Assembly (NCBI GenBank): GCA_019915015.1
Contig: JAHBBC010000008.1
Span: forward strand, 310,001-374,000
Source of the DNA: Auriscalpium vulgare
Taxonomy: Eukaryota > Basidiomycota > Agaricomycetes > Russulales > Auriscalpiaceae
Reading direction: 5' to 3'
Length of the DNA stretch: 64,000 bases
Shown here one piece after another: positions 29,395 through 61,955 of the stretch (the first letter of the stretch is position 1; the number at the start of each line of letters is the position of its first letter). The position numbers and the translations under genes were made by a program. Under the pieces are notes generated by a model. The model was not told the DNA's origin and did not search any database. It saw only the letters and a program-made list of their open reading frames with translations.

Positions 29395-29507
29395 ACGCGC
29401 ATTCCCCGGCCAAACCGCGGTGCATCGGGTCGCGACAAGTGCCCGACGGCGTACAAAACGCGGGCTGTCGGTGCCTGCGACCCATCGTCTGTCATGTCGT
29501 CCACCTT

Positions 29508-34245: not shown

Positions 34246-34329
34246 CTCTTGAGACTTGGGTTCAAAGGAGTGGAAGGTTTGGTTGGGGTAGGCTCAACAG
34301 CTAGTGTGTCGGCTCAGGGCCCATAACCT

Positions 34330-34645
34330 AAACGCAGCGAAGGCGGCAGAAGCCTAGTGACCTAGTGACCAAAGGTAACCTCAGTCGAATGTAGAAGAGA
34401 CTCAATTGAATAGATGTGTACCTAGTGACCAAAGGTAACTAGGTAGAGAGTTAGATATGCCTAGCGAGGCAGAAAGGAACGGTGCTCACCCTCAGTCGAA
34501 TGTAGAAGAGACTGAGGGGCGACGTGGCGCGTATGGCGACTATACGAGTTGTCCGTGATTAGGTAACGAGCGTCAAAAGTATGAGTATAGAGGATATGTA
34601 CGAAGAAGTGATTGTAAGTAAGTAATGTACGTTCTACGACAACAC
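34330..34645 (-). repeat. 5' LTR of the Copia element
   Basis: 316 bp, same sequence as 29508-29823. It is followed inward by the GGTTATGGGCCC primer site and outward by ACCTT, the target duplication. Confidence 0.9.
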
Positions 34646-35513
34646 ACCTTTGCCCTTGAATCGCGCGCACTCGCCCTTGTCGGCTTACTCCTCGCGCCCC
34701 CTGCCATTGACTTGGAGACCGCCCCCGTAGAGACCCTGGTCGCGGCTCGTGAAGAGTGGGGTCGCAAGGTAGCCGCCCTCTACGTACGTCCTCGCATTGT
34801 TCTCGTGACCGCCGCTCATCCTGGTGTTGGGTTGTTCCAGGGCGAAGTCTTTAATACCGCGAAGCCGTCCGTCCTCCGCCTGGTGCAGGCGATTGTGGGC
34901 CCGATCTTCGAGACATTGTTCACCGTGTCCCCCGAGTCGCGTGTTGCCTTCGCCGAGTGGGGTGGTATTCTCATCGGCGACATCGCGCCCCCGACGTCCG
35001 CTCCACTCAATCCGACATTCGCAGTTCGCCCAATTGCTGGCTTCACCTTTCCCAACAATCGCGATCATGCTCGGCAGCTCGCCCGCCTTTGCGAGGGTGC
35101 TCTGTGGGCAGCGTTCGAATCGGGTCGCACGTCCGTACCTCAGTACCGCCGCAGCCTCGGCGAGCTCTGCCTGGCCGCTCATCCTACTGGTTGCGGCGGG
35201 GGCATTGACGCGACCGTGCACGCAGAGTTTATCGCCGCGATGGACGCTTGCGCGTCCGCGCTCCAGCGCCTGACTGGCGGGGAGGAGGCCCTCTTGTCCG
35301 AGATCCATCGCCTGGCCTACTCGACCACTGGCGTATCCCTTCCCGACCTCCTGCGCACCCTCGCGCATCCCCTCTCCGATACTCTTATCACCCACACTAT
35401 CGAGACGGTGGCGACCGTGGAATCGGTCTATGCTACCATCGCTCAAGTCGCGCGACCCGACGATCGGAGCGCGCGCGGTCGCTGGGGTCCCTACGTTGAC
35501 GCGTTTGATTCGG

Positions 35514-36103
35514 CGGATGGGTCGCTGGAGGCCGCCGCGGCGGCGTTTCTTCGCGACTCGTTGCAGTGGGCTACCACGATCGACAGTCTTCATGCCCGGA
35601 CTGCGATAGAGAGCGCGATCCTCGCGTCGAACCTCCCTACTCAATTGTTGGCCGACATCCACAGCAACCCGACGATGTTTCTGGACGAGATCATGACGTT
35701 CCGCGCTGTCCCGATGGGGTGGCAGAACGTTCACCGCGGTCGCCGAGGTGGAGGTGCGAATCGGGGTCGTGTCAGCCAGCAGGGGCACATCCCTCGCGAC
35801 GACCCTGGCGGATGGGTCGCTGGAGGCCGCCGCGGCGGCGTTTCTTCGCGACTCGTTGCAGTGGGCTACCACGATCGACAGTCTTCATGCCCGGACTGCG
35901 ATAGAGAGCGCGATCCTCGCGTCGAACCTCCCTACTCAATTGTTGGCCGACATCCACAGCAACCCGACGATGTTTCTGGACGAGATCGTGACGTTCCGCG
36001 CTGTCCCGATGGGGTGGCAGAACGTTCACCGCGGTCGCCGAGGTGGAGGTGCGAATCGGGGTCGTGTCAGCCAGCAGGGGCACATCCCTCGCGACGACCC
36101 TGC
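35514..36103 (+). repeat. 295-bp tandem duplication inside paralogue 3
   Basis: Two direct copies, 35514-35808 and 35809-36103, differ at one base seen (ATCATG against ATCGTG). Since 295 is not a multiple of three, the duplication breaks the frame. Near-identity implies a very recent event. Confidence 0.9.
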
Positions 36104-42556: not shown

Positions 42557-42912
42557 TTACGATTACTCTTAATCGTTTCTTTCTTCAACCAAGTCAGGCC
42601 AAAACGTGAACACATTATAAGTCGCTTTAGGAAATAGATCCCACGGTCAAGTCGCGTCGTCCCAACTGCCTTTTTCAGTAATTCTTAGCTAAGCAGGTCC
42701 TGCCGCACCTTGCAGGATCCTCACACTTCAACTATAGCACTAGCATGGTTCCCATTACGAGTACTCTTAATTATGATTCCTCCTAATCATTTATTTCCTC
42801 CATCAGCCAGGCGAAATGCATGCATTAGAAAGAATGCTCTAGGAGATATGTCCCAAAGCTTGGACTAAAGTCAAGTTGTGTCGTCCCATCTGCCTAATTC
42901 TGTAATTCTTAG

Positions 42913-42919
42913 CTAAGTA
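42913..42919. other. Left attachment repeat CTAAGTA
   Basis: CTAAGTA precedes the element; the same 7-mer follows it at 61166-61172, and the empty site is at 15862-15868. Confidence 0.85.
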
Positions 42920-43478
42920 AACCTTAGTCGCTCCGAATTTAAGTCGCACGCCAAAATCGTGCCTGGGTGATTTAGCGGTGGTTCGTCGGCGCAAGCGCCC
43001 GGTTCGAACCAGCCGCACCGCCGCCGGGCCTGCATGCGGTCGCCCACACCAAGCAAAATCTTACACGCGCACGCTCAGCCCCAGGGCCCGAGCCTAAATC
43101 CGCCCTTAGTGTGCTCTAAGGCAGGTGCACCTGTCAAATCCTGCATCCTGACGCCAAGCACCCGGCCGCATAAATTTAACATTTAACCTTTCCTCTCGGG
43201 GGAGGTCAATTCTTGCACGGCCCGCTGGCCTCATGCCACCCCGTCAATCTTTGCACGTCCGCCTCCCCCCCCCCCTGCCCATGTCAAAACCATGCACTCA
43301 GGCAGGCGCTGACTCAGCCTGGCGCGCGGTTGGCCCGTGCGCAATCTGCGGCCCTCAGGCACAACTGGGGTCTCTGAGCTCTGATCTTTTCCAAAGTCAA
43401 CCTTCGCGATCCTTGCTCGTCATTTCACTCTGCCCCTCCGTTGCACTTGCCTCACACTTGCCCTCCCACACAATCACC
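42920..43478. other. Left subterminal region of the element
   Basis: GC-rich, with a GATTTAG block at 42970 and the palindrome GGTTCGAACC near 43011-43020. The right end has the counterpart GCGAACCGGTTCGC near 61092-61105 and TAAATC near 61118. Motifs of the GTCAAAT/TTTGCAC type occur at 43134 and 43224. The promoter of the recombinase gene should lie in the last 200 bp. Confidence 0.5.
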
Positions 43479-45826
43479 ATGCCTCGTGGCGGTAAATCCA
43501 AGTCGACCGCCTCCACTCGCGGTGGGAGGAAGAAGCAGGCAGGTGGTGCTGCCAGCAGAGGGACAGGCGTAGCAAGGCGTCTCGCCGCCGCGGCCCCTCC
43601 CGCTGCCACCACTGCCGCAGGGCCCGCCGCTGCCCAGCCTGCTGCAGCCTCCTCCGATGCGCTCTCGCCGGAGACCCTCCTGGACCGTGTCCGCATAACC
43701 ACGGAGGAGTGGTACCGCTCCAAGCGCACGGCCAAGGCGTACGCCGGCTACATCAAGGCTGGCAAGGCTTGGATGGTGGGGATGGTGGCTCAGGCAAGCT
43801 CGGATGACACGGCGGAGGACTCTTCGGAGGGCACGGAGGTGCGGTATGCGGATCTGCGGGAGGCGTTCGACACGATCTCCGCCGCGACGCCTATGGCCCT
43901 CAAGCTCTACACGGCCTACAAGTGTGAGGAGCAGGAGTGCGGGTTCTCCACCGCTGAGGGTCTCCGAGCCGCGTTCAAGGATTACTTCATAAGGTGCGTT
44001 GACTTGACGTTGGGGCTGGCGCCATTCACAGGCTCACGCTCTGATAGGGTGCTCGGGTGCCAAGGAGACATGTGGAAGTTCAACCCGACCACTCAGAAAT
44101 GGGAGGGCAACCCCGTGTTCGACCCGGAGTTTATCACTTACTTTGAGTCCCTCAAGCACCGCTCGCAGCGCAATGCCACGGTCACGCACGCGTTGCCTAT
44201 GCTCCCCAAGGACATGAAGGTCATCATGGCATACCTGGATGGGGAGGAGGCTGCGCGCACCATGTCTCTCACCCGGCGTCTGTACTTCAAGGCTTTTGCG
44301 ACAGCAGCGTTCAACCTGTGGACGAGGTGCGTGCTTGCTGGGAATCTTGGCATTGCAACGGACACTGATGATCACACCTGACCAGAAACGAGGAGATGGT
44401 CACTCTGCAGTGGAAGAACGTATGTTTCCATGGCGACGGGAGCTTGGAACCTTACATCTCCTTCAACCTGGTGTTCAGAAAGACGAACAAGGACCCCGCC
44501 GCAGGCAAGTGCTTCATAATTGCCCTGGGGCCCCTGCCTTGCGCTGATCACCGTGCCTCTGCAGGCCATGAAATGCGCGTGCCTGAGCAGCCGGACGAAC
44601 CGGAGATCAACGTGTACCCTCACATGCGTGCATGGGTTGCTCACCTCCAGGAGAAGATGCAGAGGCGATTGCAACCTGAGGACTACGTCTTCCCTGCTCT
44701 GGCGTCCACAGACCTGCTCAAGTTCGGGGAGCCCATGTCGCGCACCGGGATAGAGAACATCCTCGACAGACTCACGGACGCATCCGGTGTCATGGATGGG
44801 CGTTCCGGCAAATTCACGACGCATTGCTTTCGACGAGGCGGGGCGCAGTACCGCTTCATGTTTGCGGAACACAAGTGGAGCATGAAGGCGATCAAGTGGT
44901 GGGGTGGCTGGTCTGCAGGTGACGATGTAGATGACCTCTTTACTCTTTTTGCTCTGGAGTTCCTGTTCTAAAGGCAATGCAGGTTGGGACTGTCATGCGC
45001 TACTTGCTGGATGAGTTGAGCGCTTATGAGGAGGGCTTCTCGGACATCATGCTCAAGAGCCGCAACAAGGATTGTCATGAGAGCTTCATGGGAGGATCCT
45101 CCTCTCCGAGCATTGTCACTCAGCATGAGTTTGACAGACTGGCCAGCGTGCTTAGCAGTCAGATGGGCGAGTGGACGGCCAGAATGGCGAGTCGCATGGA
45201 GGAGATCATTTCCACGCCACGTTCAGATCACACCCTGGCATGCTCCACCCCTCAATCAGACCGCACATTGACGTGCTGCTCTCATTCAGCTACAGGTAAG
45301 CAACTGCCCAGTCCTCACAAGGTGAACGCACACTGATCCACTGTGGCGTAAAGCTCCCCTGCCATCATTGCTCTCCGTCATGCAGGCCAACGACAGGCCT
45401 GCTATGCATGCAGCATCTCCCCTGCACATGTCTCCTGCCTACGAGGACAATGAGGACCTGTTTGCGGAGGGCATAGAGGACACCCCTCCCCTTGAGACAC
45501 CCGTTCGGCCTCCGCGCATTCCAACTGTACACACACTGGACGATGTCATACGCTATTGGGAGGTGGGTGACAGCGCCAAGGGTCTTGTTGTCCCTTTGCA
45601 CAGGTGGGAAGACACCTTTGAAAGGGCATCATACGCCCAGGAGGCTGCCAAGCTCTCCAACATCAAGCATGTCTACCATGAATTCGCCGACAAGTGTTAC
45701 GGGGACCTAGATGCGTTTGAAGCCAAGTATGCTGGTCTGTCAGGGAAGTTTACCAAGCTTCTCAAAGAGGTTCGGAAGGCTCGAATAGCCAGGGGGGATG
45801 CGAAGGGGCGCCAGAGGCGGAAGTGA
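43479..45826 (+). CDS. Tyrosine recombinase (Crypton/YR-type), likely mobiliser of the element
   Basis: It starts MPRGGKSKSTAS at 43479 with a basic, alanine-rich N-terminus, followed by the SAM-like core-binding domain. The catalytic domain has Arg I in LWTRNEEMVTLQW (codon split by an intron ending near 44383), the H-x-x-R box HCFRRGGAQ (about 44824), WWGGWSAG in the histidine/tryptophan position, and the tyrosine nucleophile in MRYLLDEL (Tyr codon near 45001-45003). Introns include a probable GC-AG one (about 44506-44565) and one from GTAGATG at about 44928. The C-terminal region after 45390 (VIRYWEVGDSAKGLVVPLHRW) matches the tail I know from agaricomycete YR proteins. It cuts and rejoins DNA at short identical sites in the nucleus. 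The frame is intact. It is the first gene from the left end, the usual captain position. Confidence 0.85.
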
Positions 45827-46626
45827 TGTTAGTAGTAGAGTAGCGGCATGTAAAATCACAGCTCTTTTGACCTGTGTAAATTTTCACGCACCCGTAGGGC
45901 CAGGAGATAGCTGTGAGTAGAAACTGGAGAATACTGCACCGCTCCATGCTGTCAAATATTACCCTGCCTTTCACGCTCTGTCCAAATTTGACCTGGGCTC
46001 TGATAGCTCTCACGCTCACCGTCTGTCTGAATTTTACACTGCTGTAGTATTTATCCGTGTCATATCTTGCATCACAGTCGCTCTTAAATCTGTGGGCACT
46101 AAGGACCTCACTAAAGGCAGGCTAAGAACTTAGGGCCCCAAGATTTAGCAAGATTTAGCGGCAGATTTAGTATCCGTGTAGATGCTCCTGTTCTGCTATA
46201 CGCCTCAGGTGTATATCATGCCTGGCTTTCTGCCCTCCTGATGTTCCGTCCAGGCCAAAATTCTTGCCCATCCCTGCTTTTCATTTTCCACCTCTCTAGC
46301 CTTCCCAAGCACACTACATATGCACCTTTCTGTACATCTCAGAACTGCTGAGCCGGTTGTCTGACATATCCTCCACGTAGCAATCACTGTTCGTCTTTCT
46401 ACATTGCTGTGTTCAACATGGCTTCCTCATATTACATCCTCCGTCTATCTGTAAGACGCATACAACACCCTTATGACTGCCATACCACTGACGGCTGAAA
46501 GCTGAAGGCCTCTTGCCTATGCTCGCTTCCTCTTTGTCAAGGGCGCACACCCATGAGGATATCACAGCCACTATAAAGATACGACTTTCTCCCTACGACA
46601 GGCGTCTCTTGTGTACAAAGTTAATC
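45827..46626. promoter_or_regulatory. Intergenic region with an internal copy of the element end
   Basis: 46083-46104 reads CTTAAAT-N8-ACTAAGG, the same pattern as the left end (reverse complement) and the right end, followed by three GATTTAG blocks (46140-46170). Upstream, at 45850-46060, are five or more copies of the TGTCAAAT/TGTAAAT-type motif, for example CTGTCAAATATTACC at 45949 and GTCCAAATTTGACC at 45980. Confidence 0.6.
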
Positions 46627-47958
46627 CTAGAACTGCCATTGTGGCTGTAGCCAGCCCATCCACATCTCAGGTGGCTCCCCTTCAAGCCAGGCAGCGACGT
46701 TGAGGAGGAGCGGGACGGCTGCCTCACGGTTTCTCCAATAATCAAGAGATCTGAGACAAGAGATCAATCAGATGGCGCGTCAGGTGAGATGAGCCAGGAT
46801 GTCACTTGCCCCTGCTCATATTGCATGTCGTCCGGTTGAACTGCGTCCCGGAGCCAACCCGGATCTGGCCCAGATCTGGCCCTCGTCCACTTGACGAGCT
46901 CAAACTCTTGATCCCAGTCCTGCCCGTACCGCTTCCCCCCTGAGAACCACTCATTGTACCCATAATCCAAGCGCACCAGGGCTAGGCTTGGCAGGTTCTG
47001 AGCACTGTGGATCACCAGGGACTGCTCACAATACGTCTGCCATGTCTCCCCAGCCAGAGCTTGCCCAGGTTGGCGAACTTGATAGAGGGGATTGAGATCC
47101 ACCTCCGTGACAAACGTCTCATCAGAGGGATCGGCGGTGTCAAAGGGATTCGGGAAAATGATCCCTTTTGCCCGAAGATCCAGCGTGCGTAAGGGCCCCA
47201 GGCGTGCGATGAACTCCGGCCATATGTCATGGTTCCATATCAGTGCCGTTCCGTTCTAGGGAAAACATTAGGCCTGTGCGTGGACGGAGAACATTGACTC
47301 ACAGTTGGAGAGCATATGGTGTACTGCATATGCAGCGACTGCACCCCTCCACCTTGCCCTTGCACGGAGCTCCACCAACTTGCGATGCTCGTCCAGATGG
47401 CCAATGGGGGTACCTCGGGGAGAGAGCAGGTGATCCACAGATCTGTGAGGCCGGCCATCACAGAGATTGCCTTGTACGCGATAGTGTTGTTCATTGATGC
47501 CAGCCAGATTGCCTGATGGTCGGCAAACAACCAGCCCTCCTCCGGTCCGAGGAGCCTGATATGCAGGGTTTGGATATTGCAAAAGCGTCGAGCAGCGTAA
47601 GCTGCATGCCGCTGCCTCTCTGAAAGCTGCTGGCCTTCCCTGACATGATATTGACGAGACATGACAGAGTGATATTCAACGATCTGTTATCCATCGTGAG
47701 GTAAGCCTTCAGCAAGGTTGACGTGAGAGCATTAAAGCTCACAGTGGAGAAGAGATGGGCAAGGGAAGGTCCCCAATCCCCTCCGATAGCGGCAGGTGGC
47801 AATTCCGCATATCTCCAAAAGAGAGAGCATGAGAGGCGCACAGGCCCTAGATATTGGCGAGATAGGCCGGGGTGATCCCGCTGATAGACCTCTGAGCAGG
47901 TGGATGCAATGGCGATAAGGACATCCCTTGAAAGGCGGGGGGACTGCATTGCAGACAA
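46627..47958 (-). CDS. F-box/LRR-like hypothetical protein
   Basis: Minus-strand gene starting MSAMQSPRLSRDVLIAIAS (an internal ATG at 47949 is also possible). Exons join across introns near 47680-47740, 47247-47303 and 46755-46809, giving about 380 residues ending MGWLQPQWQF. The N-terminus, with LSRDVLIAIAS and VRLSCSLFW, resembles a degenerate basidiomycete F-box. The rest has leucine-rich blocks (CNIQTLHIRLLGPE, LTDLWITCSLPEVPPL, LRTLDLRAKG, LPSLALVRLDYG) at the spacing seen in fungal F-box/LRR proteins, substrate receptors of SCF ubiquitin ligases. It lies between the recombinase and PHD genes. The F-box call is tentative. Confidence 0.6.
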
Positions 47959-48360
47959 GAAGCAAAGAGACAGAATTACAGCCCTATTTATACAGAAAGT
48001 GCCATGCAGAATGCAGATTAGGATAGGCCCGCTCCCTGGCTCTGCTTTACAAATCTCTCTTGAATATTGAGGTCATGGTTCTTATCTGACTCAAAAGGTT
48101 GACAGAACCAAGCACTTCATCGTTGGGACAGTGCAGGAAAAGCTTGAGCATGTTTCACGTCCAGGCAGAGGGAAAGCGGAAAGCACACCTATCGTGTGAA
48201 TTTCAGCCACAGGCGCGAGCCCACACTGTTGGTTCGCGCCTGTGGCTGAGCACCAGTTCCCACACTGCCTTTGAGGATCAGATTTCTTTGGGCCTTCAGT
48301 TGTACTTCAAGTTCAAGTTCAAGATCAAAATTCTGGAGACTCATTTTGGGTACAAAATAT
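47959..48360. other. Intergenic region with a long hairpin
   Basis: It holds the hairpin at 48203-48249 and, near 48300-48330, a TTCAAG triplication. Both neighbouring minus-strand genes flank it: promoter of one, 3' end of the other. Confidence 0.5.
48203..48249. repeat. 47-bp hairpin, family 1 copy 1
   Basis: TCAGCCACAGGCGCG pairs with CGCGCCTGTGGCTGA around a partly paired centre containing ACACTGTTGGTT. The same hairpin occurs at 52645-52691 with AAGCGCG/CGCGCTT in the stem, a compensatory change. Confidence 0.85.
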
Positions 48361-50584
48361 CTACTCAGACTTCTTGTCAGACTCCTTGTATGCTATCCAG
48401 TTCCCCTCTGGAGCACCTTTAAGCACTCTTCCCTTCACAAGATTTGCCACTTCCAACAGATGACCACAGCCCCTGCACTTGAATTTGACCATCAAAACCT
48501 TCCCTCTGGCTTCACCTTCGAAGTGCCAAGGCCTGACTGCAAGGCAATCAGGGTTTTTGCACAGGCCAGGCAGTTGTTCTCCAAAGGGCTGGATCTTGGG
48601 GCTAGACCAGACCATGCGCGTCACCTCCGTCTCCTCGTCCCTAGGAGTCAGGTGGTAGATCCCAGTAGTGCGCGCAAGGCTGCTGGCCACATCTAGAATG
48701 TGTCCCATGACCTTCTCCTCCCCATTGAGGTTGACGAAAATCTTCCTTGTATACTCTATTACGAAAGTCATTGTGGTGTGGAGATTGAGAGAAGGGGCGT
48801 CAAAGGCATAGAGGTCATGAATGCTTTTGCGATTGCTATAGGATGGCACTTGGTGAATGAAAAGCTTGATAACAAAGGTTGGAGTGCTCACTTGAGGATT
48901 GTAGACTTGAGAGACTTGAGAGCAGGGGGAAAGTTGACAACCATCCCACATGAGAGGAGGAACCACTTGACTTTGGGGATCTTGGCCAAATATTTCATGA
49001 GGCGATCCCCAACAATATGCTCAAAGAACTGAGAACCATGTCATGAGAACAAATAAATGTCACAATAAGAAGGCATACCTCTGGGACAGTTACAGCCCCA
49101 TGTTCTTCAACAAGCAAGTCACCGCGAGTCTTCTCAGAATGAGTGCTGATGGCAACAACAGCTCCCTGGAAGGACTTTCCCATCCTATTGGGCTGTCAGT
49201 AAATGTGCTTTCACTATAGAATGAAAAGAGAAAGACACATACAACTCTAGAGTATCAATGAGCTTATCCAGCTCAGCCTTGTGCTTCTTCAGAGAGTCCC
49301 CTTTGTTGATGTTGAACTCAATCTCCTTGCAGACCAAGTCCTTAGGATTCTCCTGATAAAATCCTAGCAGATCCTGCCGCACAGCTTGCAAGGGTGGACC
49401 GCTGGCTTCAACCTGGCTTGAGCGCAGGCCTAGGAGCAGCAGGGGTCCTGTGTATACCCTATTGGAGGGCATCCCTGTAGCAAGGCCTGGTGCCTCCAGT
49501 GGTTTTCCAATGGTTTTGGATGTCTTCAAGTTCACAAACCCCTGTGTAATATTTAGTGGGCAATGTAACTCCAGCAATGAGCAGGGTGGGTGTAGGCTTA
49601 CTGTGTACGCATCCAGTCTGACAGTCCTGCCATCGGGACCTTTCCTTGTGATATGACAAAAAGGGCAGACAAATGTGGGCCCATTGTCTGCTTTGAGCAA
49701 GGCCTGGGGGACCACAACACACTCGTCACATGTGGCACGAGGGCACAGGTCACAGAGGGCCATTTCCCCTCCATTTTCACAGAGACAACAGTACTGCAGA
49801 GACATCTCAGTGTCGATCACTTACAATAGGCATAGGTACAGACAGACCTTGTCATGGTGTTCATCACTGGTTGCAGGTATGGCAACATCAGTCATGATCA
49901 CATCCTATGTTCCTGTTGAGCATGAATCTTATCAAGGAATATGGGGGGACATACTTTGTTTTCCTCCTGTAAATCAGCTTCATCCTTTTTATCGCCCATG
50001 CTCCTGCGAGGTGCATAGGCGCCTGTGGTCTTCTTCGCCGTTTGGCGCGTTCTCGTTCTCTTGGTGGCGGGTGCAGGAGCTGTGCCATCAGCCATGACAA
50101 CGTCCTATTTTCCTGTTGAGCATAAGCCATTTACAAGGAGAATGGTGCAAATACCTTTGTTGTGTTTGGCCCCTTTCCACGTGATTTTTTACCAGCAGCA
50201 GGTGCTGTGTTCTTGGCAGGTGCTGCAGGCACAACGACTTCCTGTGGACTGGTTCAGTCCTATCTTACCATGGATAATAGGGCAACACACATTTGTAGCC
50301 TTGCGTTTGGCTGAACGTGTTCTCCCACTCACATGAGGTGCAGGACTCTCAGGAGGAGATGGCTCAGGTACAGGACTCTCATGAGGTGATTGCTCTGTGC
50401 GCACAGGAGGTGCGGATACCTCCGTGCGCTCAGGAGGTAAGGACACCTCTGTGCGCTCAGGAGACAAAGCCTCAGTGCGATCAGCAGGCCTTGGGCTTGC
50501 AGAAGGTGATGGCGAGTAACCTGTAAGGTCCATATGGAAGGGATGAGAGACGATGAGAGACGAAGACAGATGTGTCGACGTCAA
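48361..50584 (-). CDS. PHD-finger protein with possible caspase/CHAT-like region
   Basis: Minus-strand gene with about nine exons. The N-terminus is a disordered segment with PERTEVS-type repeats, then a basic linker (TKRTRTRQTAKK). The PHD finger follows: YCCLCENGGEMALCDLCP, TCDEC and FVCPFCH (49800-49640). A helical linker (KKHKAELDKLIDTLE) leads to GAVVAISTHSEKTRGDLLVEE and KWFLLSCGMVVN; these two resemble the His and Cys strands of caspase/CHAT peptidases. After an intron the frame resumes NNRKSIHDLYAFDAPS and ends with a CKNPDC...CRGC zinc-binding pair before YKESDKKSE. PHD fingers read histone H3 tails in the nucleus. The peptidase reading is only a hypothesis. Confidence 0.7.
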
Positions 50585-51012
50585 TGTAAAATTTGTACGT
50601 ATGTCCTAAATAGGCAATTGTTTGTATGTGTTTGTGCCGCGTTCGTTTTGCTTGTGTGTCGCGTCGCCTCTTTCCCTCACCCTTCCCCCACCAGCAGGAG
50701 GCATCGTAGTGCCGCCCCCGTAGCCAGGCTGAGGAGTACCTCTGTCCTGCCTCGGGGACCTGTTGGCACGGAGGATCTTTGTGGCAGGGCGGCGTAGTAG
50801 CGCCTCCCCCGCAGCCAGGCTGAGGCGTACCTCTGTCCTGCCTCGGGGACCTGCCACTGGGGTGCTCTCTTCCCCCCTTCTCTCCTGTCCTCTCTCCCAG
50901 GTTTCTTACTTTACAAGGGGTGGGACATGACCAGCGTGCATGCTGGGGAACGGGTGCTAGGACATGGGCAACAGGCATGGGCAATAGGCATGTCCTCCCC
51001 CACTGTCTAAAC

Positions 51013-51066
51013 AAATATCTTGCCAGCAAGCGCGAGGAACTCCTCGCGTGCATGGTCAAGATATTT
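51013..51066. repeat. Hairpin, family 2 copy 1
   Basis: Outer arms AAATATCTTG/CAAGATATTT and inner arms CGCGAGGA(A)/(C)TCCTCGCG form a 54-bp cruciform-like palindrome. Confidence 0.8.
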
Positions 51067-51763
51067 TGGATGGCGTGGGAGGGCAGCGTGGCCATGTGGG
51101 CGGCGTGGTGTGGTGGGCGTGGCGGGCATGGCGGGGGCATCGTGCGCTGGTGATGTGGCAGGCCGTGAACGACGTGCGCGCGTGGGAAACAGCGTGCCCT
51201 GGCTGTGGGTGACGTGGCGGGCGGTAGACGGCGTGCGCGGGGCAAGGGACAGCGTGCGGGGGGTGGCGGGGGACGGCATGGGGTGGGCGTGGCGAGAGCG
51301 AGGCGGCGTCGAGCGGGGCGGCGTCGAGCGTGGCGGGAGCGTGGCGTGGCGGCGTCGAGCGTGGCGGGGCGGCGTCGAGCGGGGCGGCGTCGAGCGTGGC
51401 GGGAGCGTGGCGTGGCGGCGTCGAGCGTGGCGAGAGCGAGGCGGCGGGAGCGTGGCGGCGGGAGCGTCGAGTGCGGCGACGGCAAGCAAGGGTGGTGGGG
51501 ACTCACCTGGCGACGAGCCCGAGGGGCTCGTTGTCCTCAACATCCTCCCCCTCCTCCTCCTTCCTCCCTCTGCACCCCCTCCTCCACCCTCTCCAGCCTC
51601 CAGGCGTGCGCTGCTGGGCACGGAAGCGTTGCGCAGAAGCGCAGCACGGCGTCGTGGTGTTCCTCTTGCGCGTCCGAGTGCCGTGACGTGGCAGCGCCAG
51701 CTGCCTCGTCAGTCTGGCAGCCCGGCGTCTTGAGGAGTCGCCACGCGTACCCAGCCACCAATA

Positions 51764-51815
51764 AATCTCTCACCCGCCAGCGCGAGGAATTCCTCGCGTG
51801 CGTGGTTGAGAGATT
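51764..51815. repeat. Hairpin, family 2 copy 2
   Basis: Outer arms AATCTCTCA/TGAGAGATT and inner palindrome CGCGAGGAATTCCTCGCG. Both differ from copy 1 yet still pair. Confidence 0.8.
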
Positions 51816-52424
51816 GTGGGTGGGACGGTGTACCGGTGAGGCGGACAGTGTGCGGGGCGTCGACGGGGGGCGTGGGGCGTACACGGCGGGCGCGGCGTGG
51901 GGGGATGTCGTGCGGGGGCCGTGGGTGTTGAGCGCGGGTCGAGGGACGGCGTGCGGAGGCGGTGGGCGTCGAGCGGGGCGGCGGCGAGCGGGGGCGGCGG
52001 CGAGCGCAGGCGAGCTGCGTCAAGCGCCGGCGTGCAGCGAGCGCCTGCGCCACGCAGCGTCGAGCGCAGGCGGGCTGCGTCGAGCGTGGCGGGGCGGCGT
52101 CGAGCGCCGGCGACGTTGAGCGCGGGCGGGCCAGGCGGGGGAGACGGGGGCGGGCCGGGGGAGAGGTGGGCGGGCCGGGGGAGAGGTGGGCGGGCCGGGG
52201 GAGACGGCGGGCGGCGACGGGAGACGTGGGCGGGGGCTGGGGGACGAGGGCAAACACTCACCTGCGTCGAGCCCCTTGGGCTCGACTCCTCCCCTTCCTC
52301 CCCCTCCTCCTGCACCCGCTGCTTCCCTCCCCACCCCTCGAGCGCGCACGGCGCGGCGCGGTGACGTGGCGCGGCTGCGCGGCACGTCGTTGTGTTGCGT
52401 GGTGTTGCGTGCGCAAGCGCTGTG

Positions 52425-52452
52425 ACGTGGCAGCGCGCAAGCGCTGCCACGT
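52425..52452. repeat. Hairpin, family 3 copy 1
   Basis: ACGTGGCAGCG pairs perfectly with CGCTGCCACGT around a CGCAAG loop. A related hairpin lies at 52803-52828 and a weaker one near 51683-51712. Confidence 0.75.
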
Positions 52453-52644
52453 AACGTCCGCTGTGTTGAGGGCGGTGTGGCGGAGACGGAGGGGAGGGGA
52501 GGGCGCGGGAGTGGTGGGCGGGGGCAGGAGCGGGGGCGGAGGACGGGACGGGAGGGGAGGGCGAGTGCGCGGGAGGGTGAAGAAGAGAAGGAAAGGCGCG
52601 GGTCACGCGTGGGCGCACAAGCTGTGCGTCACGCGTGACGTCGC

Positions 52645-52691
52645 TCAGCCACAAGCGCGAACCAACACTGTTGGTTCGCGCTTGTGGCTGA
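52645..52691. repeat. 47-bp hairpin, family 1 copy 2
   Basis: TCAGCCACAAGCGCG pairs with CGCGCTTGTGGCTGA and the centre AACCAACACTGTTGGTT is also palindromic, so the whole 47 bp is a near-perfect inverted repeat. Confidence 0.85.
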
Positions 52692-52802
52692 GCCTCTCAC
52701 GCTCTCACCACCCTCCCCCGCAGCCGTCCCTCCCCCGCCGCCGTCCCTCCCTCGCCGCCGTCCCTCCCCCGCCAACTCCTCAAGACCCTAGACCGCGAGC
52801 GC

Positions 52803-52828
52803 GACGTGGCAGCACGCGCTGCCACGTC
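52803..52828. repeat. Hairpin, family 3 copy 2
   Basis: GACGTGGCAGC pairs with GCTGCCACGTC around a short ACGC loop. Confidence 0.75.
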
Positions 52829-53060
52829 ACTGCGCTCGGGCACGCAACACGAAGACGACGACGTGCCGCGCTGTCGCGCCACGTCACCGTGCCCCGCCGC
52901 GCGTCCCCGAGGCGTGGAGAGGGGAGTAGAGGGTGCAGAAGGTGGAGAAGGAGAGGCAGAAAGATGGGGAGGAGCGCAGGTGAGTGCGCCCGTCGTCTCC
53001 CGTCCCCCCGCCGCCCGCCACTGCACCCCCGCCCCCGCCCCGCCGCCCACGACCCCTGCA

Positions 53061-53878
53061 CGCCCCCGCCGACCCGCCACGCCGACGTCGACCCGCGCAC
53101 GCTGCCCAGCGCCCCGCCACGCCGACGCCGACCTGCGCACGCTGCCCTGCGCCTCGCCACGTCGACGCCAACCCGCGCACGCTGCCCTGCGCCCCGCCAC
53201 GTCGACGCCGACCCGCGCACGTCGACGCCGACCCGCGCACGTCGACGCCGACCTGCGCACGCTGCCCAGCGCCCCGCCACGTCAACGCCGACCCGCGCAC
53301 GCTGCCCAGCGCCCCGCCACGTCGACGCCGACCCGCGCACGTCGACGCCGACCCGCGCACGTCGACGCCGACCCGCACACGACGATGCCGACCCGCGCAC
53401 GTCGATGCCGACCCGCGCACGTCGACGCCGACCCGCGCACGCTGCCCAGCGCCCCGCCACGCCGACGCCGACCCGCGCACGCTGCCCTGCGCCCCGCCAC
53501 GTCGACGCCAACCCGCGCACGCTGCCCTGCGCCCCGCCACGTCGACGCCGACCCGCGCACGTCGACGCCGACCCGCGCACGCTGCCCAGCGCCCCGCCAC
53601 GTCAACGCCGACCCGCGCACGCTGCCCAGCGCCCCGCCACGTCGACGCCGACCCGCGCACGTCGACGCCAACCCGCGCACGTCGACGCCGACCCGCGCAC
53701 GTCGACGCCGACCCGCACACGACGATGCCGACCCGCGCACGTCGATGCCGACCCGCGCACGTCGACGCCGACCCGCGCACGCTGCCCAGCGCCCCGCCAC
53801 GCCGACGCCGACCCGCGCACGCTGCCCTGCGCCCCGCCACGTCGACGCCAACCCGCGCACGCTGCCCTGCGCTCACGC
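53061..53878. repeat. 20-bp minisatellite with a 16-17 unit higher-order period
   Basis: About 40 units of 20 bp of two types: A (GTCGACGCCGACCCGCGCAC) and B (GCTGCCC(A/T)GCGCCCCGCCAC), in mixed order. Rare variants GTCAACG (53281, 53601) and GACGATG (53381, 53721) recur after 320 and 340 bp, so the array grew by duplicating a block of 16-17 units. Three units make 60 bp, 20 codons, which keeps all frames open. Confidence 0.95.
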
Positions 53879-53959
53879 CACGTCCCCACGGCGCCTGCGC
53901 TCCCGCCACGCCGACCCGCGCACCGTCGCCCCGATGCCCGGCACCCACCTCCCGTGCTC

Positions 53960-54011
53960 AATCTCTGGTCCGCAGGCGCAGGGAATTCCCTGCGTCCGGG
54001 GGGCAGAGATT
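53960..54011. repeat. Hairpin, family 2 copy 3
   Basis: Outer arms AATCTCTG/CAGAGATT and inner palindrome GCAGGGAATTCCCTGC. It ends the GC-rich zone directly upstream of the TET/JBP promoter. Confidence 0.8.
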
Positions 54012-54610
54012 AAGTAGGGAGCAATGGAGCAGGGATGGAGATACACAGCGAAAAACGGAGGGGGCAGCAGGGAGACTGCATTCTTTAAATAATCCTGAGG
54101 TCAAGCCTCTACGGATTTGGCCGCAAGTGGATTCATTTTGAAGATAAAGGAAGGGGAAACGTATAGTAATATTTACAGAAATATTGACCAAGGGAAAAAA
54201 GCACCAGGGGGCAGTAAAGGATGCAACTGCCATGTTATTATTTACAAACGTATCGATCAACCGATAATCCTGGAAATAATACCATGGATCTCCCTGTCCT
54301 GCGCCGTCAGAATGGGCCCACTCGCGTCTGAAACGGAGGAGACATGAGGGCTGGGCATCAAAACAAAATAAGCCACCTTCGTGGTCCCCCATGTCATTCT
54401 TCCCACGGTCAAAAATCTTGTAAATAATGCAGTGGGTGTCCCCAGTAGGGGCAAAGGTATGGTAGTATTTACAAGAATATTGACCAAGGGAAAAAAACGC
54501 CAAGTCATTTCTCGCACTGAGTTTGATGCGCCGCTGTCAAATCTGACAAGTCACTGCTGGCCAGCTCTTGCCTTCCTCCCTCACCTCCCTCCCTTCTCAG
54601 ACTCTTCAAA

Positions 54611-57600
54611 ATGAACATCAGCTCTGAGCTTGCTTTGTTCCTCTTGGGCAGGGCCCCAGAACTCTTGGCTCTGTATCCACAAGAGCCAGAGTGGGCAGCT
54701 ATTTACAATGAGCTCTCTAGGCAACAGACTCCTGCTCTGGAGGTCAACCAGCTGGCTACCCCCAGAGCCACACCTTTCTCTCCTGGCACTTCTGGAGAAC
54801 GGTTGACCCCTGCTGCCAGTTCTCCCACTGGGCAGGTGGTCTCTGCAGAATCAATGGTTGAAAATGCTGTAAATGCATCTCCAGGCTCTGACACATTTTT
54901 CATTCTCTGATTTGCCAGCTAGGCTGTATCCCCAGGGTCTGAGCCATCCAGGCATAGTGAAAGGCTGGATGCTGTCCGGGCTAAAAAGGTGTGTGCCAGC
55001 TGGTTCTCTCTCTTTGTGACATTCACTCAGGGAGTGCAGGCCAAGCAGACCAAGGGCAGCTCTCCTGCCAAGGGCAGCTCTCCCGATAAGAGACTGCGTT
55101 CTGGCAAAAAAACTCTGGTAGGTCTTTGGCAACCAACAGCAGGTAAGATATGCTCACTGGATGTTCAGGTTCTCACAGGGCGTGGCAAACCAGCGCCCAG
55201 TGGCTCTGGCAGTGGCCAAGGCGGCAACTCTGTTCATTCAGACTGTAAAAGGGGCAGCGAGGCTAACAAGGTGATGGCTCCCATGGAGGCCATCCCAGAG
55301 TATGAAGGACTGGAGGCAATGGAGGTTGACGAGGATGAAGAAGAAGCCATGGTACGTTTTGAAGTCTCTATTTTTTGGCATTAATCTCACTGTGCTTGAA
55401 GGAGACGAGGGAGCACGTCTGGGTGGAACGCACAGTTCCTCCAAGACCAACTGCAAAAACCCTGCTGCTCCTGTCTCATCTTGGCGGAATCTCTAACTCC
55501 TCTTCCCAGAAGAGTCTCTCTGATCTCATAGAAGGTCACTCTGGGAAGCTCCCCCTGGAGAACCCAGCTCAATCTTGGAGCACACAATCATGTGGGGATA
55601 CTGGTGGCATGGTTCTGGACTTGTCCAGGATGAGATCTCTAGGAAATCAATGTGAAAATCTGGAGCTGGCACAGAAGGTTATCACCTTTCGATCCACCAT
55701 TGTCTATGTTGAACTGGCTGTGGAAGTGGATTTGTCAGTGCTGTTTCATCTCTCAAGGCTGCTATGATTAATTGTCTAGCAGCATTTTGAAGCATCAGGC
55801 AGTCTTTGCCAATACAAAGGACATCAAGAATCTGGTGGCCCTTTGGCGCGCTGTAGGAGGGAAATGGTCTGAACAGAATTTTCGCCTTTGGGTGCAAAAA
55901 GGGAGAAGATTGATCTATCTGGCTCAAGCTGGTAAGTAGCCCTGCTCATATGAGGAACTGCCAGTGATTCATCCTTGTCCAGCTTCCCTTCACATCTTGA
56001 CTGTCATCTCTGCTCTGGGAGTGGCACAATTATTCATTGGATCTAGGACCAAGGCCATAGAGTCTGATCTCATGCAGGTGGCATATGCTCTCAGAGCTGT
56101 TCCTGGTATGTGCTTTTTTATTTTGCAGTTCTCCTTCTAATATCTTGTATAGAACAATACTCTGGAAATCTCATCAGTTCCTCCATTATTCCAGGCCTTC
56201 TACAGGCCCATATACTGTCCAAGGACAAGTGTGGATTTCACATCTCAGTCCCTGTCCTTACTATGGAGGGCTCTGTGGGCTCTGTGGGCTTTCAGCAGCT
56301 GCATTTCAACAATATTCAGGCGTCTGATGATTATCTCTCAAAAGTCTTGGTGACGTACGTGAGATATGCATTTTCTATTAGTGAGCTCATACTGATCTCC
56401 CTCACATAGTGGATGGAAGCTTCCAACCAGGGCTCTGCTGTGGTCAGAAGATCTACCCCACCAGCAGGAGAGGCCTACTGTATTTTTGCCTAATCCTGGG
56501 AAGGTCTGGGAAGTGTCCCTTCCCTTTGATATCACCCACACTCCCAGCCCTGTGGGGAGGGGCAATAGTGAGGCCTGGACGGCCGCCCAGAGAGAGGCTG
56601 CTGCCTCTGCATTTCTTGACAGCCCATCAAGTGTGGCTAACCTGAAGAAGAAGGTGTGTTGGTTCAATCATTCTGTCATGGCTTGCACTTAGGCGTTGTT
56701 AGCTTCTCTCTCATGAAGCAGAGGGACCCTATATTTCTATCAAACCTGCTATATGCAATGGGTGAGTGCTCTGCTTCTTGCGCCCAGGGACCCCTGGCAT
56801 CCTAATGCTTGACTGCAGGAGGCCTCTGCATATCCGAGACAGCTCCCAGCACCTTGTTGGACTGGTGCTCTCTGACTTTGGCACTGCCTACCCTCAGTCC
56901 TTGGCCAGCATCACAGCTAAACTCCTTCATCTTCTTGGGGATGAAATTGGACAAGATGCCTCAGATATCCCTGGCTTCAAGTTTGCTGCAGAGCATCACC
57001 AAACCTACAATAGGTATTCTGAAAGGGTATGTTCCCTTCTCTCCAACTCCTGAACATCACTGAGACACACTCTTTTCCAGGGAGACAATGCTCCAGAGGG
57101 CATGCATCCCTACCTCCTCACAAAGGATGGGAATGTCCGGGTCAATATCCAGCACCGCATGCCTCGGGCTTCCATAGAGACTCGCAAGGATCCTGTCAGG
57201 TATATGCTCCTGGTGGAAGCCCTGGAAGACATGATGGTGTACATCAAAGTGAATGTGAGTCTACCTCTTTCGCCAAAGCAAAACTCATGTGATGACACCT
57301 TTCTTTCAAGCTGGCCCATCATCTCCCTAAGGTCTACGATGACCTGACCATTGCCATTGAAACCCTCCCCCTGGGCTCTGTCAGCGCGGCACACCCTTTC
57401 TCAGGCTTTGTGCTCAATTTGTCTGCTTGCACGCGTGGACATCGTGACAGCAAGGACAAGTCTGTGTGCGTTGTTGCACCATTTGGTCATTGGCAAGGGG
57501 GTGGTTTGTGTTTGTTTGAAGCAAAGCTGGTCATCCACCTGAGACCTGGTGATGTGCTCATCTTCCCCTCAGGGGAGCTCACACACTTCAACCTTCACTT

Positions 57601-57694
57601 TGAAGGCCTGAGGGGTTCAGTTGTCCTCAGCACGGACAGAGACATTGATGGGTGGGTGCATGATTACAATGGGTGGGGCAATCACATCCAGTAG
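54611..57694 (+). CDS. TET/JBP-family 2-oxoglutarate/Fe(II) dioxygenase
   Basis: It starts MNISSELALFLLGRAPELL at 54611 and is spread over about a dozen exons. The N-terminal part is low-complexity with an acidic MEVDEDEEEAM; the middle has helical exons and DLPHQQERPTVFLP near 56440. The double-stranded beta-helix lies at the C-terminus. Iron ligands are H-R-D in RGHRDSKDKS (about 57437-57463) and the distal histidine in ELTHFN (about 57577-57592); the 2OG-binding arginine is in LRGSVVL. HWQGGGLCLFE and LRPGDVLIFPS are family hallmarks. The protein ends NGWGNHIQ at 57694. TET/JBP enzymes oxidise 5-methylcytosine or thymine in DNA. All catalytic residues are present. It runs away from the hairpin zone. 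Confidence 0.85.
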
Positions 57695-57865
57695 CTACAT
57701 TTCTCCAATACCTGACATTGCATCTTGAAGTTATATATATCTTATATCTCTAGCAGTAATATCATCTGTAGCTTATTTTCTTGTTCACCTTTGTCTCAAG
57801 CATTGAAAGCAGATATGATGCCAATCTGCATTTAGTCTGTAACACGTTTCCTGCCCTGATCCCTC
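57695..57865. other. Convergent 3' region
   Basis: AT-rich spacer between the TET/JBP stop and the minus-strand coiled-coil gene stop. Nothing else is seen. Confidence 0.5.
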
Positions 57866-60621
57866 CTACTGCTGGGTTCCAGAGCTGCTGGCTGCACCTG
57901 CCAAACGCATCACATCTGCCCCCTCCTCTCCAGGAACCTTCAACACCTTCATAAGCTTGACGACGAGTTCAGTGGACTCCTGCCCTCCAATGGCGTGCGC
58001 CTTGGCTAGCTCTTCCAGGGCCCACCTGACCGTTTCCTTCAAGCGCGCCTCTCTTGGCTGCAGGAGATCGTCAATGTGCAAGCCGGAGGTCTCAGCAATA
58101 GCCGCTGCGCAATAGGGCAAATTGAGCAGAGAGAAGCCCAGCTTGTACCGAAGAACGGTCACATTGCCGCCCTTGTCGGCAATGCGCGTCTGGCTTGACT
58201 GAATCTCTTCATTGTTCCTTGCATTGGGGACGTTGTACGTCTGTGCCGTCTTGACCATCCACAGCTCAAGGAGAGCGGAGTCTGCAGGGCAACCGCAGTC
58301 CAGGTATGCTGCATCGTCTCGGGATGAAACCGCCTTCATGGTATGGCCCGTTACGCGCACCTGCTTTCCTCTACCCGCACGGGAGCAGGAAAGGCACTGA
58401 GTGACGTAGGATCCATCCGCGGTCTTTCTCTGGACATACCATTAAGTGATGCCTAGCGGAGAGTGAGGATGGGAAAGTGCTTGCCTTGGCCAAGCGCAAG
58501 AGGGCTGTGGCCACCTCGCGTCCGCTGTGGATGGCAGACATGTGCTGGTCCGGCTGCGTTCTAGCCTCAAACGCCAGGGTATACGTCACCTCCGTGTCTT
58601 TGTTGGTTTCCTCATCTCTGAATGTCGGACGGAAGCCTTCTGCAAATCGCCTGCCCAGGGCTTCCAGGGCTGCGTCAAGAGAATGCAAAGGTGTGTTAAG
58701 AATGGCAGGCATACCTCCTTTGTCTTTGCCTTTGCCCTTTGCGGAAGACTGAGACTTTCCCTTGCCTTTGCCTTTCGCCTTTGACTTGGTGGCGTTGTCC
58801 TCCTCTTCAACCTCAGACTCCCCGCTGCCATCCCTGTCATCCTCCGGTCCGTAGTTGCTGTCGGAACCTGCGGAATCCGCAGCCTCCACTTCCGCATACC
58901 ACAGCCTGAACCAATTACGAAGTGCCTTGCAGTAGTCCACAGTGATCTTGCTCTTGTCTTCACTGGCGGCGTGGGGAATGGGCCAGTTGAAGTCCGTAAG
59001 CTGGAAGCCCAAGCTGCTGGCTTTCTCAATTGCCTCCAAGTGGATCTTGAATGCAGCCCGTCTTGAGCCTCTGGACCTGATATCCTTAGTCACCGCTTGG
59101 TGAAAGCGTAGTGACTGCACTGCGCTAAGGCCCTCAGAGAACAGCTTGAAATCTGGCTGTTCTGTGAGGAAAGAGAGGGTTACATCTCAAAGTCATTAGG
59201 AGGATAACACAAGCACCTACTGCTCTGAGTCTGGTTGGACTCTCCGTCCCCCCGACCTGGCTCCTCCGTGGTCTGTTGCCCATGCTCAGAGTGGCCAGAG
59301 TCTGATTGAAATTAACACGTGTTAGAAGTTGCATCTGGAAGTATCATGGGGCAAATTGGACAAAGGAAGATCTGCAAAATGTAACAAATGCATAGGAAGA
59401 TCCGTCAAAATTAACACGGTCACTGATACGTCTTGCAAAAAGTTGCAGACCTGATGCCCAGGCCCAGTAGCTGTATAAAATGACAGTGAAATGTGACTGT
59501 GCAAGGGTGCAAAATGTTGCAGCTGCATATCATGAGGTGTAAGAAATGACAAATGTGAAAGCAGCCCCCTGTAAGAAATGTCACATAGGCAGAGCGCCCT
59601 GTAAAAAATAACAGGCACCAAGTGGGCAAGGTAAGATATTGCAGGTGCCCAGGACAGCCACAGATGTCATATATGACATCCCTGCCTATGCCATGGCAAG
59701 GCAGGCAAATTATGACAGATGGGAATATGACCATGCAAAAAATGACAGGAGCCAAGTCGTTGACACTGTAAAATAATGCATCTGCAGACCAGAGGCACAA
59801 CTGTCAAATCTGACAGCACAGCACGCACAACAGAAAGGGATGCAAAATATGACGGATGCAAAATAAGACAATGTAAAAATTGGCTGCATCCAAGTGGCCA
59901 CTGTAATGTAAAATATCACAGACGCTCCTGCCGCTGGTGAATTTTCACAGCCCTCACAGAAGCAACTGTCATATTTTACAGCCCAGCGGAAGATGTTGGC
60001 AGGCAGGTATGATTTGACAAAGCAAGGAAAGACTATCTTGTGGCAGGCAGCAATAAACTCACCTTTGGGTGCAGAATGGCCTCTCTCAGCATCGTGTGTC
60101 TCCGGAGGCACGGGTGGCCTTGGGGGTGGCGACTCGGGGGTTGGCGTCAATGCTGAGAATGCTTGTCAGCGGTATGGAAACGGACAGTGGGTCTGATATG
60201 CGCACGGCTGCCCTTGGAGGCCTCCTCAGGTTCGTCCACATTCATGGCGTCTTCTGGAATGCCAGAGGCATGGGCAGCAGACGTAGTCTTGTCCGGTGTG
60301 ATCTTTGCCTTCTTGCGCAGGGCGTCGAGCTTGCGACTGGCTTCTTTGAGCTCTTGGGAAAGCAGCGTGCCGTAGCCTGGCAACGCTCAGTTGGTCAGTA
60401 TCAGCAGTTAGAGGGATGTATGTCATTCACCCACCCCTAGTAGTTCCCTCATACCCCACAGGTATCAGGTCGTGCTTCTGGCGGCCACGGGCTGCGGCCG
60501 TCCACGCATCCTTCTTCTTCTTGAGCTCCCTCTCCTCCTTCTCCAGCTTCTTGATCTCCGCCTTGAGTGCCTGAGAGGTGTCGGCAGTGGGGGCCGTGCG
60601 GGCGGTGCGGTTCACAGGCAT
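57866..60621 (-). CDS. Coiled-coil, acidic-linker hypothetical protein of the element
   Basis: Minus-strand gene starting MPVNRTARTAPTADTSQALK at 60621. The first exon contains a coiled coil (ALKAEIKKLEKEERELKKKK). Further exons add SQELKEASRKLDALRKKAK, a proline-rich piece and SGHSEHGQQTTEEPG. The main exon (59150-58490) reads FHQAVTKDIRSRGSRRAAFK...FNWPIPHAA...ALRNWFRLWYAEVEAAD, an acidic stretch, a KGKGKGKSQSSAKGKGK basic run and ALEALGRRFAEGFRP. The last exon starts with DCGCPAD and is helical to SSSGTQQ. I do not know the family. Its intron at about 59308-60061 is filled with a short repeated motif. A DNA- or chromatin-associated role would fit the charge pattern but is only inferred. 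Confidence 0.65.
59340..60030. promoter_or_regulatory. Array of about 20 TGTMAAAWNTKACA-like motifs in an intron
   Basis: Copies occur roughly every 30-40 bp, such as CTGTATAAAATGACAG (59471), TGTAAGAAATGACAAATG (59538), CTGTAAAAAATAACAGG (59599), CTGTCAAATCTGACAG (59801) and TGTAAAATATCACAG (59907). The consensus is close to an inverted repeat (TGTCAAATTTGACA), suited to a dimeric DNA-binding protein. Isolated copies lie in other non-coding parts of the 18 kb element. Confidence 0.55.
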
Positions 60622-61165
60622 GGGGACTGGTGCGCGGGCAGAAATACTGCGGGGTGGACGTACTGCTGGGGGAGGGGGGGGAGGTAAAATTTAGACGGCC
60701 GTTGACGGGGCGGAACGTCTCTGTTGCACTTTGTTTATTTTACAGGGCCCTGCGGGCAGGCCAGTGCCGATCGCGCCATCACCAGTGGCCACCGTGGGAA
60801 ACCCCCCCCAACGGTGGGGGGATGTCAAATTTATGCAGAGGGAGCGGAGGGGTAAGATTTGGTACAAGATGAGGGAGGCCGTAAAGAAATGACGTGTTGC
60901 TTGTGTGCGTGCAATATCTAACCGCCCCAGATTGCCTTTTGTCAGATTTGACGCCTGAGAAGCCTGGCGGGTGCGCCCACACCGGATCGCGTCGACGGCG
61001 GGTTTGGACTGGCCCGGCATGATGAACAAGCGGCGAACCGCGACCACCTGCAGCCCCGCGCAGGCCTGATGCGCCGTCGGCGAAACCCTGGCGCGAACCG
61101 GTTCGCACCCTGCGCCCTAAATCTCGGCATCACCGGCGCCGCATAAGCGCCTTAAATGCACGGCA
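60622..61165. other. Right subterminal region of the element
   Basis: It contains more TAAAATTTA, GTCAAATTT and GTCAGATTTGACG motifs (60686, 60826, 60939), the palindrome GCGAACCGGTTCGC (about 61092) and the terminal CTTAAAT-N7-ACTAAGT. No gene is seen. Confidence 0.5.
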
Positions 61166-61172
61166 CTAAGTA
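61166..61172. other. Right attachment repeat CTAAGTA
   Basis: CTAAGTA marks the return to host-repeat sequence (TAGCTCCTGCC against TAGCTACTGCC in the empty copy). Confidence 0.85.
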
Positions 61173-61955
61173 GCTCCTGCCTGCCCTGTGATTTACACAC
61201 CTTTGCACTGCAAAAGACACTCGTGTCTGCGAGTATTTTGCATTTTCCAAGCTAATTAGCATTGATATACACATGATACCAATTGTTCTCAGGTCAGAAG
61301 AGAAGGCCTTCTAACTTCCCTTTTTGGTAACATGTTCCCACGGGGTGACAATGGTGAGGTTGGCAATTGGGAGGGCTCTAGTTGCTAACTACCATGCATT
61401 ATATATACCAGAAGTGTTGAGAGGATGTTGATCATGTGAATAGCCAATGATATAATTCCTCAACAAGCATGGGAAAATGACGCAGTTGAATCAGGCAGAC
61501 TGGGATTTTTGCCGGTCAATGAGTCATTGCTTACTAATCCCGGGGATAAAGTACCCGGTTACCCGGTAATTGAGCAATTTTTAGCTAAGTAGCTCCTGCC
61601 CAATGCTTTTCAACACCTTCTCACTTCCAAAGACACTCATGTCTGCAAGTATTTTGCGTTTTGCAAGCTAACCAGCAACAATATGAACATGTTTTCAATT
61701 GTTCTCGAGTCAGCAAAAAATACTGCATGATTTCCATTTTAGGTAACATTTTCCCACGGGTAGGCCAAACACGCACCATGACGCATCAACCGGCACTTTC
61801 AACTGGGTGCAGGATTAAACGCGTCATGGTGCACAAACCCGGCTACTACAATACCCGGGCAGAATAATTATATTATTAAAAAGTCGCACAGAGGGAGAAT
61901 TGAACCTACAACCTCTTGGTTCTTTATATCAACCAATAGTATTGACCACTACACT

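Follow-up and report, generated by a model that had tools for sequence, protein, structure and literature searches.

A candidate tyrosine-recombinase cargo element carrying a TET/JBP dioxygenase-family gene in the basidiomycete Auriscalpium vulgare

The window, i.e., the whole stretch of 64,000 nucleotides analysed here, corresponds to positions 310001-374000 of contig C8 (JAHBBC010000008.1) of Auriscalpium vulgare; a single genome, of 51.6 Mb in 96 contigs, was analysed. A host repeat of a 1145-bp kind is split in the window (42557-61955) into two halves, 42557-42919 and 61173-61955, which align with an uninterrupted copy at 15506-16650 on the + strand. This confirmed the interrupted and uninterrupted repeats reported at these coordinates in the preliminary description. 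The uninterrupted copy contains the heptamer CTAAGTA once (15862-15868), and in the split copy the heptamer stands at 42913-42919 and at 61166-61172. Since the neighbouring bases on each side are unlike, the direct repeat is exactly 7 bp, in agreement with the earlier statement that the junction duplicates only CTAAGTA. The mobile element bounded by the two heptamers occupies 42920-61165 on the + strand (18,246 bp), with junctions that are precise by comparison with uninterrupted repeats.

The uninterrupted repeat had been taken for the empty site of the element. It is indeed uninterrupted, but it belongs to a dispersed repeat family, as a paralogue of the split copy and not the same locus. 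The host repeat was found in at least 40 places in the genome (186 candidates, 40 scored, 46 matches). The empty copy in the window differed from the filled C8 repeat at 40 of 1145 positions, and among 24 rows compared, the empty copies nearest to the filled repeat differed from it at 5/1089 to 5/1146 positions. By eye, the sequence at 16575-16660, where the host repeat has its right end, looks like a tRNA derivative in reverse; no tRNA was called anywhere in the window by ARAGORN. Elsewhere in the window, a tandem array of 17 near-identical 129-nt units at 20494-22857 looks by eye like WD40 repeats, identical 300-nt direct repeats lie 4.8 kb apart (29507-29806 and 34329-34628), and a 295-bp tandem duplication was observed at 35512-36101.

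The first gene of the element (43479-45826, + strand) begins 559 bp inside the left end and reads inward. Like all gene models across the element, it was modelled by hand, with six exons (43479-43993, 44048-44326, 44386-44504, 44565-44926, 44983-45295, and 45354-45826) that encode 686 amino acids with no inner stops, and it is open both in the window and in a second copy of the element on contig C9. The R, K, HxxR, and Y residues of tyrosine recombinases were identified as R265-K297-H391-R394-Y432, which were invariant across 22 aligned sequences. The predicted structure had a Cre/Xer-like fold, with the model being uncertain at residues 415-424 and 438-471, adjoining the catalytic tyrosine. 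On the catalytic residues and the model, the first gene is predicted to encode an intact tyrosine recombinase with a Cre-like fold, as had been claimed. The whole protein matched no Pfam family at E up to 10, and a single exon reached 19.7 bits against Phage_integrase, below the cut-off of 27.1; this weak Pfam support is a point against our main reading. DUF3435 (PF11917) was not detected in the recombinase itself and matched 3 of 22 relatives weakly (best E 0.0025), and GCR1_C was detected in none of the 22 aligned relatives at E up to 10. A sequence search of the PDB with the recombinase profile returned nothing useful. Protein searches of the genome gave four recombinase loci, on C8, C9, C4, and C10, to which a later search added a weak match on C6 (E 0.001).

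Behind the recombinase lie two genes on the - strand and a GC-rich block. An uncharacterised gene with rough limits (46764-47949) had no informative Pfam match at E up to 1. The adjacent PHD-type gene (48361-49808) has a PHD-like finger at the start of 49185-49820, and the inclusion of the frame 48361-49020 in this gene is a guess. The Pfam match to PHD was weak, with 15.1 bits where the cut-off is 24, so that the PHD protein announced earlier stands as a PHD-like finger and falls short as a Pfam assignment; 211 amino acids of it were identical between the C8 and C9 copies. The block at 50900-54000 is a minisatellite, mostly of 72-80% G+C per kb, whose length varies between the two copies. At the far end of the element, a right-end gene of about 573 amino acids (57866-60621, - strand) encodes N-terminal coiled-coil-like helices and Cys motifs. 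Its 271-aa exon was identical in C8 and C9, and its predicted structure (mean pLDDT 42.7) was well resolved in the N-terminal helices only. Of 7995 candidates scored, two relatives of this protein were above threshold, both from Auriscalpium vulgare (80 and 74%).

TET/JBP enzymes are of the kind that erases DNA methylation. The gene of this family in the element (54611-57694, + strand) has a catalytic exon at 57296-57694, and its upstream exons are uncertain. The catalytic exon alone scored 30.3 bits against Tet_JBP, and the partial spliced protein scored 39.9 bits, above the cut-off of 34.9; the earlier claim of a TET/JBP gene inside the element was thus borne out after exon joining. Judged from this match and from an alignment in which HRD, the distal H, and R are present, the element carries a TET/JBP dioxygenase-family gene that is apparently intact in the C8 copy. 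Kojima 2025 (PMC12730594) distinguishes an AG type, with Gly or Ser at D+3 and Asp at D+9, from a PE type with HxE. In contrast to both, the protein of the element has Asp at D+3 and Val at D+9, and HRD in place of HxE; it is therefore neither of the AG nor of the PE type. One partial Auriscalpium vulgare TET protein showed 86% identity over 9% of the query. A PDB search with the TET domain gave nothing useful, with a Naegleria Tet-like dioxygenase at E 0.67-0.91 only, and the protein had no match in PHROGs.

Iyer et al. reportedly were the first, in 2014, to tie TET/JBP to KDZ. The genome contained 17 matches to PF12851 and 168 matches to PF18758 (KDZ). Six TET/JBP matches of equal score (C8:1578966, C9:154498, C9:492869, C13:416026, C13:539088, and C14:947177) each sit 4.3 kb from a KDZ match; KDZ-linked TET/JBP genes, anticipated in the preliminary description, are thus present in this genome, though of another type than that of the element. 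Besides the TET pieces of the element and of C10:977908, eight others were read, and five of them were of the Kyakuja (AG) kind (C8:1578966, C10:111107, C27:420026, C6:184514, and a fragment on C53). The non-AG pieces showed 57% (C4:370291), 46% (C12:500546), and 29% (C2:2970183) identity to the TET of the element. The pieces at C12:500546 and C4:370291 are of the element's kind and lie away from the recombinases found, the nearest on C4 being about 76 kb distant.

A DNA search of the genome with the recombinase gene revealed a 99% copy on the minus strand of C9. The element there is complete, with both ends, CTAAGTA, and the target base of the repeat identical to those on C8. The preliminary description had asked whether the 7-bp duplication recurs at other insertions, and it does so at this second insertion. 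The C9 copy is broken, near the equivalent of position 59734 of the window, by a stretch of about 11.6 kb with more copies of the host repeat; inside this copy of the element, host repeats lie at the outer ends of two inverted arms (more than 4 kb; C9, about 1482289-1492598). Between the two elements, 43 of 15,215 compared window bases differed (0.28%), with 12 gapped positions counted apart; the blocks compared were 42920-51000, 54031-59733, and 59735-61165 (21, 15, and 7 substitutions, respectively), and the GC-rich block was omitted. The flanking repeats differed at 23 of 1143 positions (2.0%), about seven times as much. A flank tree was calculated from 25 rows, consisting of the window's empty copy, two C9 copies, two filled repeats, and 20 fetched repeats, which were drawn from about 40 listed full or near-full copies and were mostly those less similar to the window's empty copy. 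In the IQ-TREE result, the C8 flank clustered with six empty copies in a seven-member clade (support 100/99), and the C9 flank was sister to the empty copy C4:442498 (99/95). Because the divergence of the elements is far below that of the flanks and each flank clusters with empty repeats of its own, the comparison indicates that the C8 and C9 elements probably arose by two independent, site-specific insertions. A site-specific recombinase would be expected to behave in this way, entering two repeat subfamilies at one and the same base.

The termini of the element are AA..CA. Two subterminal motifs at the left end, ATTTAAG (42937-42943) and GATTTAG (42969-42975), recur in mirrored order at the right end (61117-61157) as the reverse complements of GATTTAG and ATTTAAG; we propose them as putative arm sites of the recombinase. 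A right-end pattern, with up to 3 mismatches allowed, was found in three places in the genome, on C8, C9, and at C4:706860-706885, compared with 0 in the control. The C4 right end is 82% similar across the last 87 bp, contains both subterminal motifs, and is followed by CTAAGTA and then by DNA that is not the repeat. Next to it, in the matching place and orientation, lies a right-end gene homologue (35% over 394 aligned residues). Genome searches found neither recombinase nor TET/JBP near this C4 end, which is a point against the main reading. Since this diverged end meets CTAAGTA in unrelated DNA, the heptamer is best read as a constant recombination or crossover core rather than a target-site duplication; of the earlier account of CTAAGTA, the 7-bp direct repeat holds and the target-site duplication probably does not.

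The left-end pattern was less specific. It occurred exactly on C8, C9, and C16 and with one mismatch on C40 and C70, and at up to 2 mismatches it gave 12 occurrences in total against 11 in the control; this lack of excess also speaks against the main reading. The look-alikes at C16:947937, C40:138777, and C70:31972 share 18-19 bp, (C/T)TAAGTAAACCTTAGTCGC, including the core, in otherwise unrelated surroundings; by our own arithmetic, about 0.0004 chance occurrences of an exact 19-mer are expected in the genome. The C40 and C70 look-alikes are one duplicated segment, and that on C40 carries TAAGTA (6 bp). Reading 1.1 to 3.3 kb inward from the three sites revealed no recombinase or other clear element sequence; the sites may be old remnants, other elements, or natural sites, and they are a further point against the main reading. 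The short AT-rich motifs GTAAAAT and GTCAAAT appeared enriched in four stretches of the element, and this was given no weight because the stretches were selected after the motifs had been seen.

More distant relatives were found on C4, C10, and C2. The recombinase gene matched C4 and C10 at 68-69% in the DNA search; the C4 and C10 blocks are 97% alike and about 69% and 68%, respectively, similar to that of the window over 1.2 kb. Their left ends share the start TGCATATTCACGTCGCG, preceded by CTATGTA on C4 and ATAAGTA on C10. A TET/JBP gene with 57% identity to that of the element over 126 aa lies about 3.3 kb behind the C10 recombinase in the opposite orientation. The C4 segment matching this TET region is some 72 kb away from the recombinase of that contig; on C10, the junction falls where the two C4 pieces separate. 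The linkage on C10 is weakened because the TET segment starts where the similarity to the C4 locus stops and its C4 match is so distant; C10 was therefore set aside as a second clean recombinase-TET element, and linkage in the C4/C10 lineage is at most suggestive. On C2, a decayed relative (321504-327154) has 39 bp of the recombinase gene left; after this remnant come the uncharacterised gene and the PHD gene, at 83%, and the GC-rich block. TET/JBP was absent from this copy in the 14 kb read, again a point against the main reading.

Starships are described as elements of 15-700 kb with a leading recombinase, cargo, and insertion into other repeats (PMC12134995, PMC13066641). The present element resembles them in its first-gene recombinase at the left end, in the several cargo genes behind it, in the short direct repeats at its ends, in its insertion into repeats, and in its 18 kb, inside the reported range. 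In contrast to the Starships of Pezizomycotina, it lies in a basidiomycete and its recombinase has no DUF3435 match, and TET/JBP cargo was not seen in the Starship literature examined (PMC12134995, PMC13066641). One basidiomycete, Tremella fuciformis, is among the reported hosts of Starships (PMC13066641), so that a recombinase vehicle in basidiomycetes is not wholly new. CryptonF elements are described with a tyrosine recombinase, 4-6-bp direct repeats, GCR1_C, and a proposed circle with crossover at a short core (PMC3212892). The element shares with them the recombinase and possibly the circle and core crossover; it differs in its several cargo genes and in the GCR1_C result given above. Its direct repeats are short but of 7 bp (6 bp at the C40 look-alike), and the inverted similarity seen at its ends is that of the short mirrored motifs. 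As DUF3435 and GCR1_C were not detected, it was filed neither as a Starship nor as a CryptonF, and of the earlier phrase "like Starships or oversized Cryptons" the Starship-like layout is what remains. A distant relation of its recombinase to DUF3435 captains is possible, as is a diverged C-terminal DNA-binding domain. On its sequence features, we place it among tyrosine-recombinase cargo elements, with a layout that recalls Starships.

In fungi, TET genes are reported on Kyakuja, Zisupton, Dileera, hAT, IS3EU, EnSpm, ESTA, Plavaka, Harbinger, and Helitron transposons (Kojima 2025, PMC12730594). The likeness to the present element is a TET/JBP gene on a transposon, thought to resist methylation-based silencing; in contrast, those transposons have DDE transposases or, in Helitron, an HUH nuclease (PMC12730594). 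The words "recombinase", "Crypton", and "Starship" are absent from the main text of that paper, dated December 2025. Among the literature titles and abstract starts listed, no tyrosine-recombinase element with TET/JBP was described, which agrees with the earlier suspicion that such carriage was new.

The element is very probably an autonomous basidiomycete transposable element mobilised by its own tyrosine recombinase. The earlier notion of a mobile unit with this recombinase in the lead and TET/JBP inside gained from the second, apparently independent insertion with identical ends and the same 7 bp. A single insertion, with the filled repeat spread afterwards by composite transposition, segmental duplication, or gene conversion, would account for the shared target base and orientation in one repeat kind and for the 112 bp around the junction that match between both flanks. 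It is improbable, however, and disfavoured by the flank tree, since the flanks are some sevenfold more diverged than the element and have different empty relatives on both sides of the junction; the 23 differences fall on either side, the nearest 37 bp to the left and 76 bp to the right, and a conversion tract would have to stop within these distances yet carry 18 kb. Far less credible still is a Kyakuja-like (KDZ) TET/JBP transposon, or a nested one, with the recombinase as a passenger. Kyakuja has 7-bp target-site duplications, no inverted repeats, and CA..TG termini, and is the sole TET-bearing kind reported from Russulales (Kojima 2025, PMC12730594), and KDZ matches are many in this genome. 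The element nevertheless differs in its termini, its 7 bp are constant across different contexts, its TET/JBP is not of the AG type, and no KDZ was found in the C8 and C9 elements among the matches listed or in the Pfam-scanned frames. Termini, the lack of a KDZ match in the element among those listed, and the constant heptamer led us to reject a KDZ origin, with very little doubt left.

The place of TET/JBP in the element is a separate matter. That it is a chance, recent, or local passenger of a recombinase element, and not a lasting part of the family, has an appreciable chance of being right, if less than an even one. Such a passenger would fit the lack of TET/JBP in the decayed copy on C2 and at the C4 right end, the reversed orientation on C10, the distant C4 segment, the position of the C10 junction, and the Mycena TET relatives (P0123, P0124), which apparently share a contig with no Mycena recombinase among the 120 matches listed. 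Against it stand the intact gene in the C8 copy and the relative close to the C10 recombinase.

For the autonomous, recombinase-driven element that we prefer, a mechanism can be proposed. The recombinase would bind the mirrored sites at both ends, and recombination between the two CTAAGTA cores would release a circle. The circle would then integrate by crossover at a genomic CTAAGTA, leaving one core on each side. TET/JBP may counter silencing by oxidising 5-methylcytosine on the element or close to it; that TET/JBP helps transposons escape silencing is the field's proposal (Kojima 2025, PMC12730594). The PHD-type protein may read chromatin, and the right-end gene may encode an accessory factor. 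More tentatively, and with less than an even chance, the element may represent an undescribed group of recombinase cargo elements in agaricomycetes, perhaps also in Mortierellomycota, apart from Starships and Cryptons, in which a TET/JBP of a further type and a PHD-type reader, with the right-end gene as a lasting partner, would keep the element and CTAAGTA sites in silenced repeats open.

TET/JBP genes are known on fungal DDE transposons and Helitrons. A tyrosine-recombinase vehicle with a different type of TET/JBP would, if true, mean that such genes have been captured once more, by a transposon of an unrelated kind, and would lend weight to the idea that TET/JBP serves the transposon and not the host. 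With a repeated target that is entered at a single base, the integration reaction lends itself to direct testing. In mushroom-forming fungi, the element would be, in compact form, what Starships are in ascomycetes.
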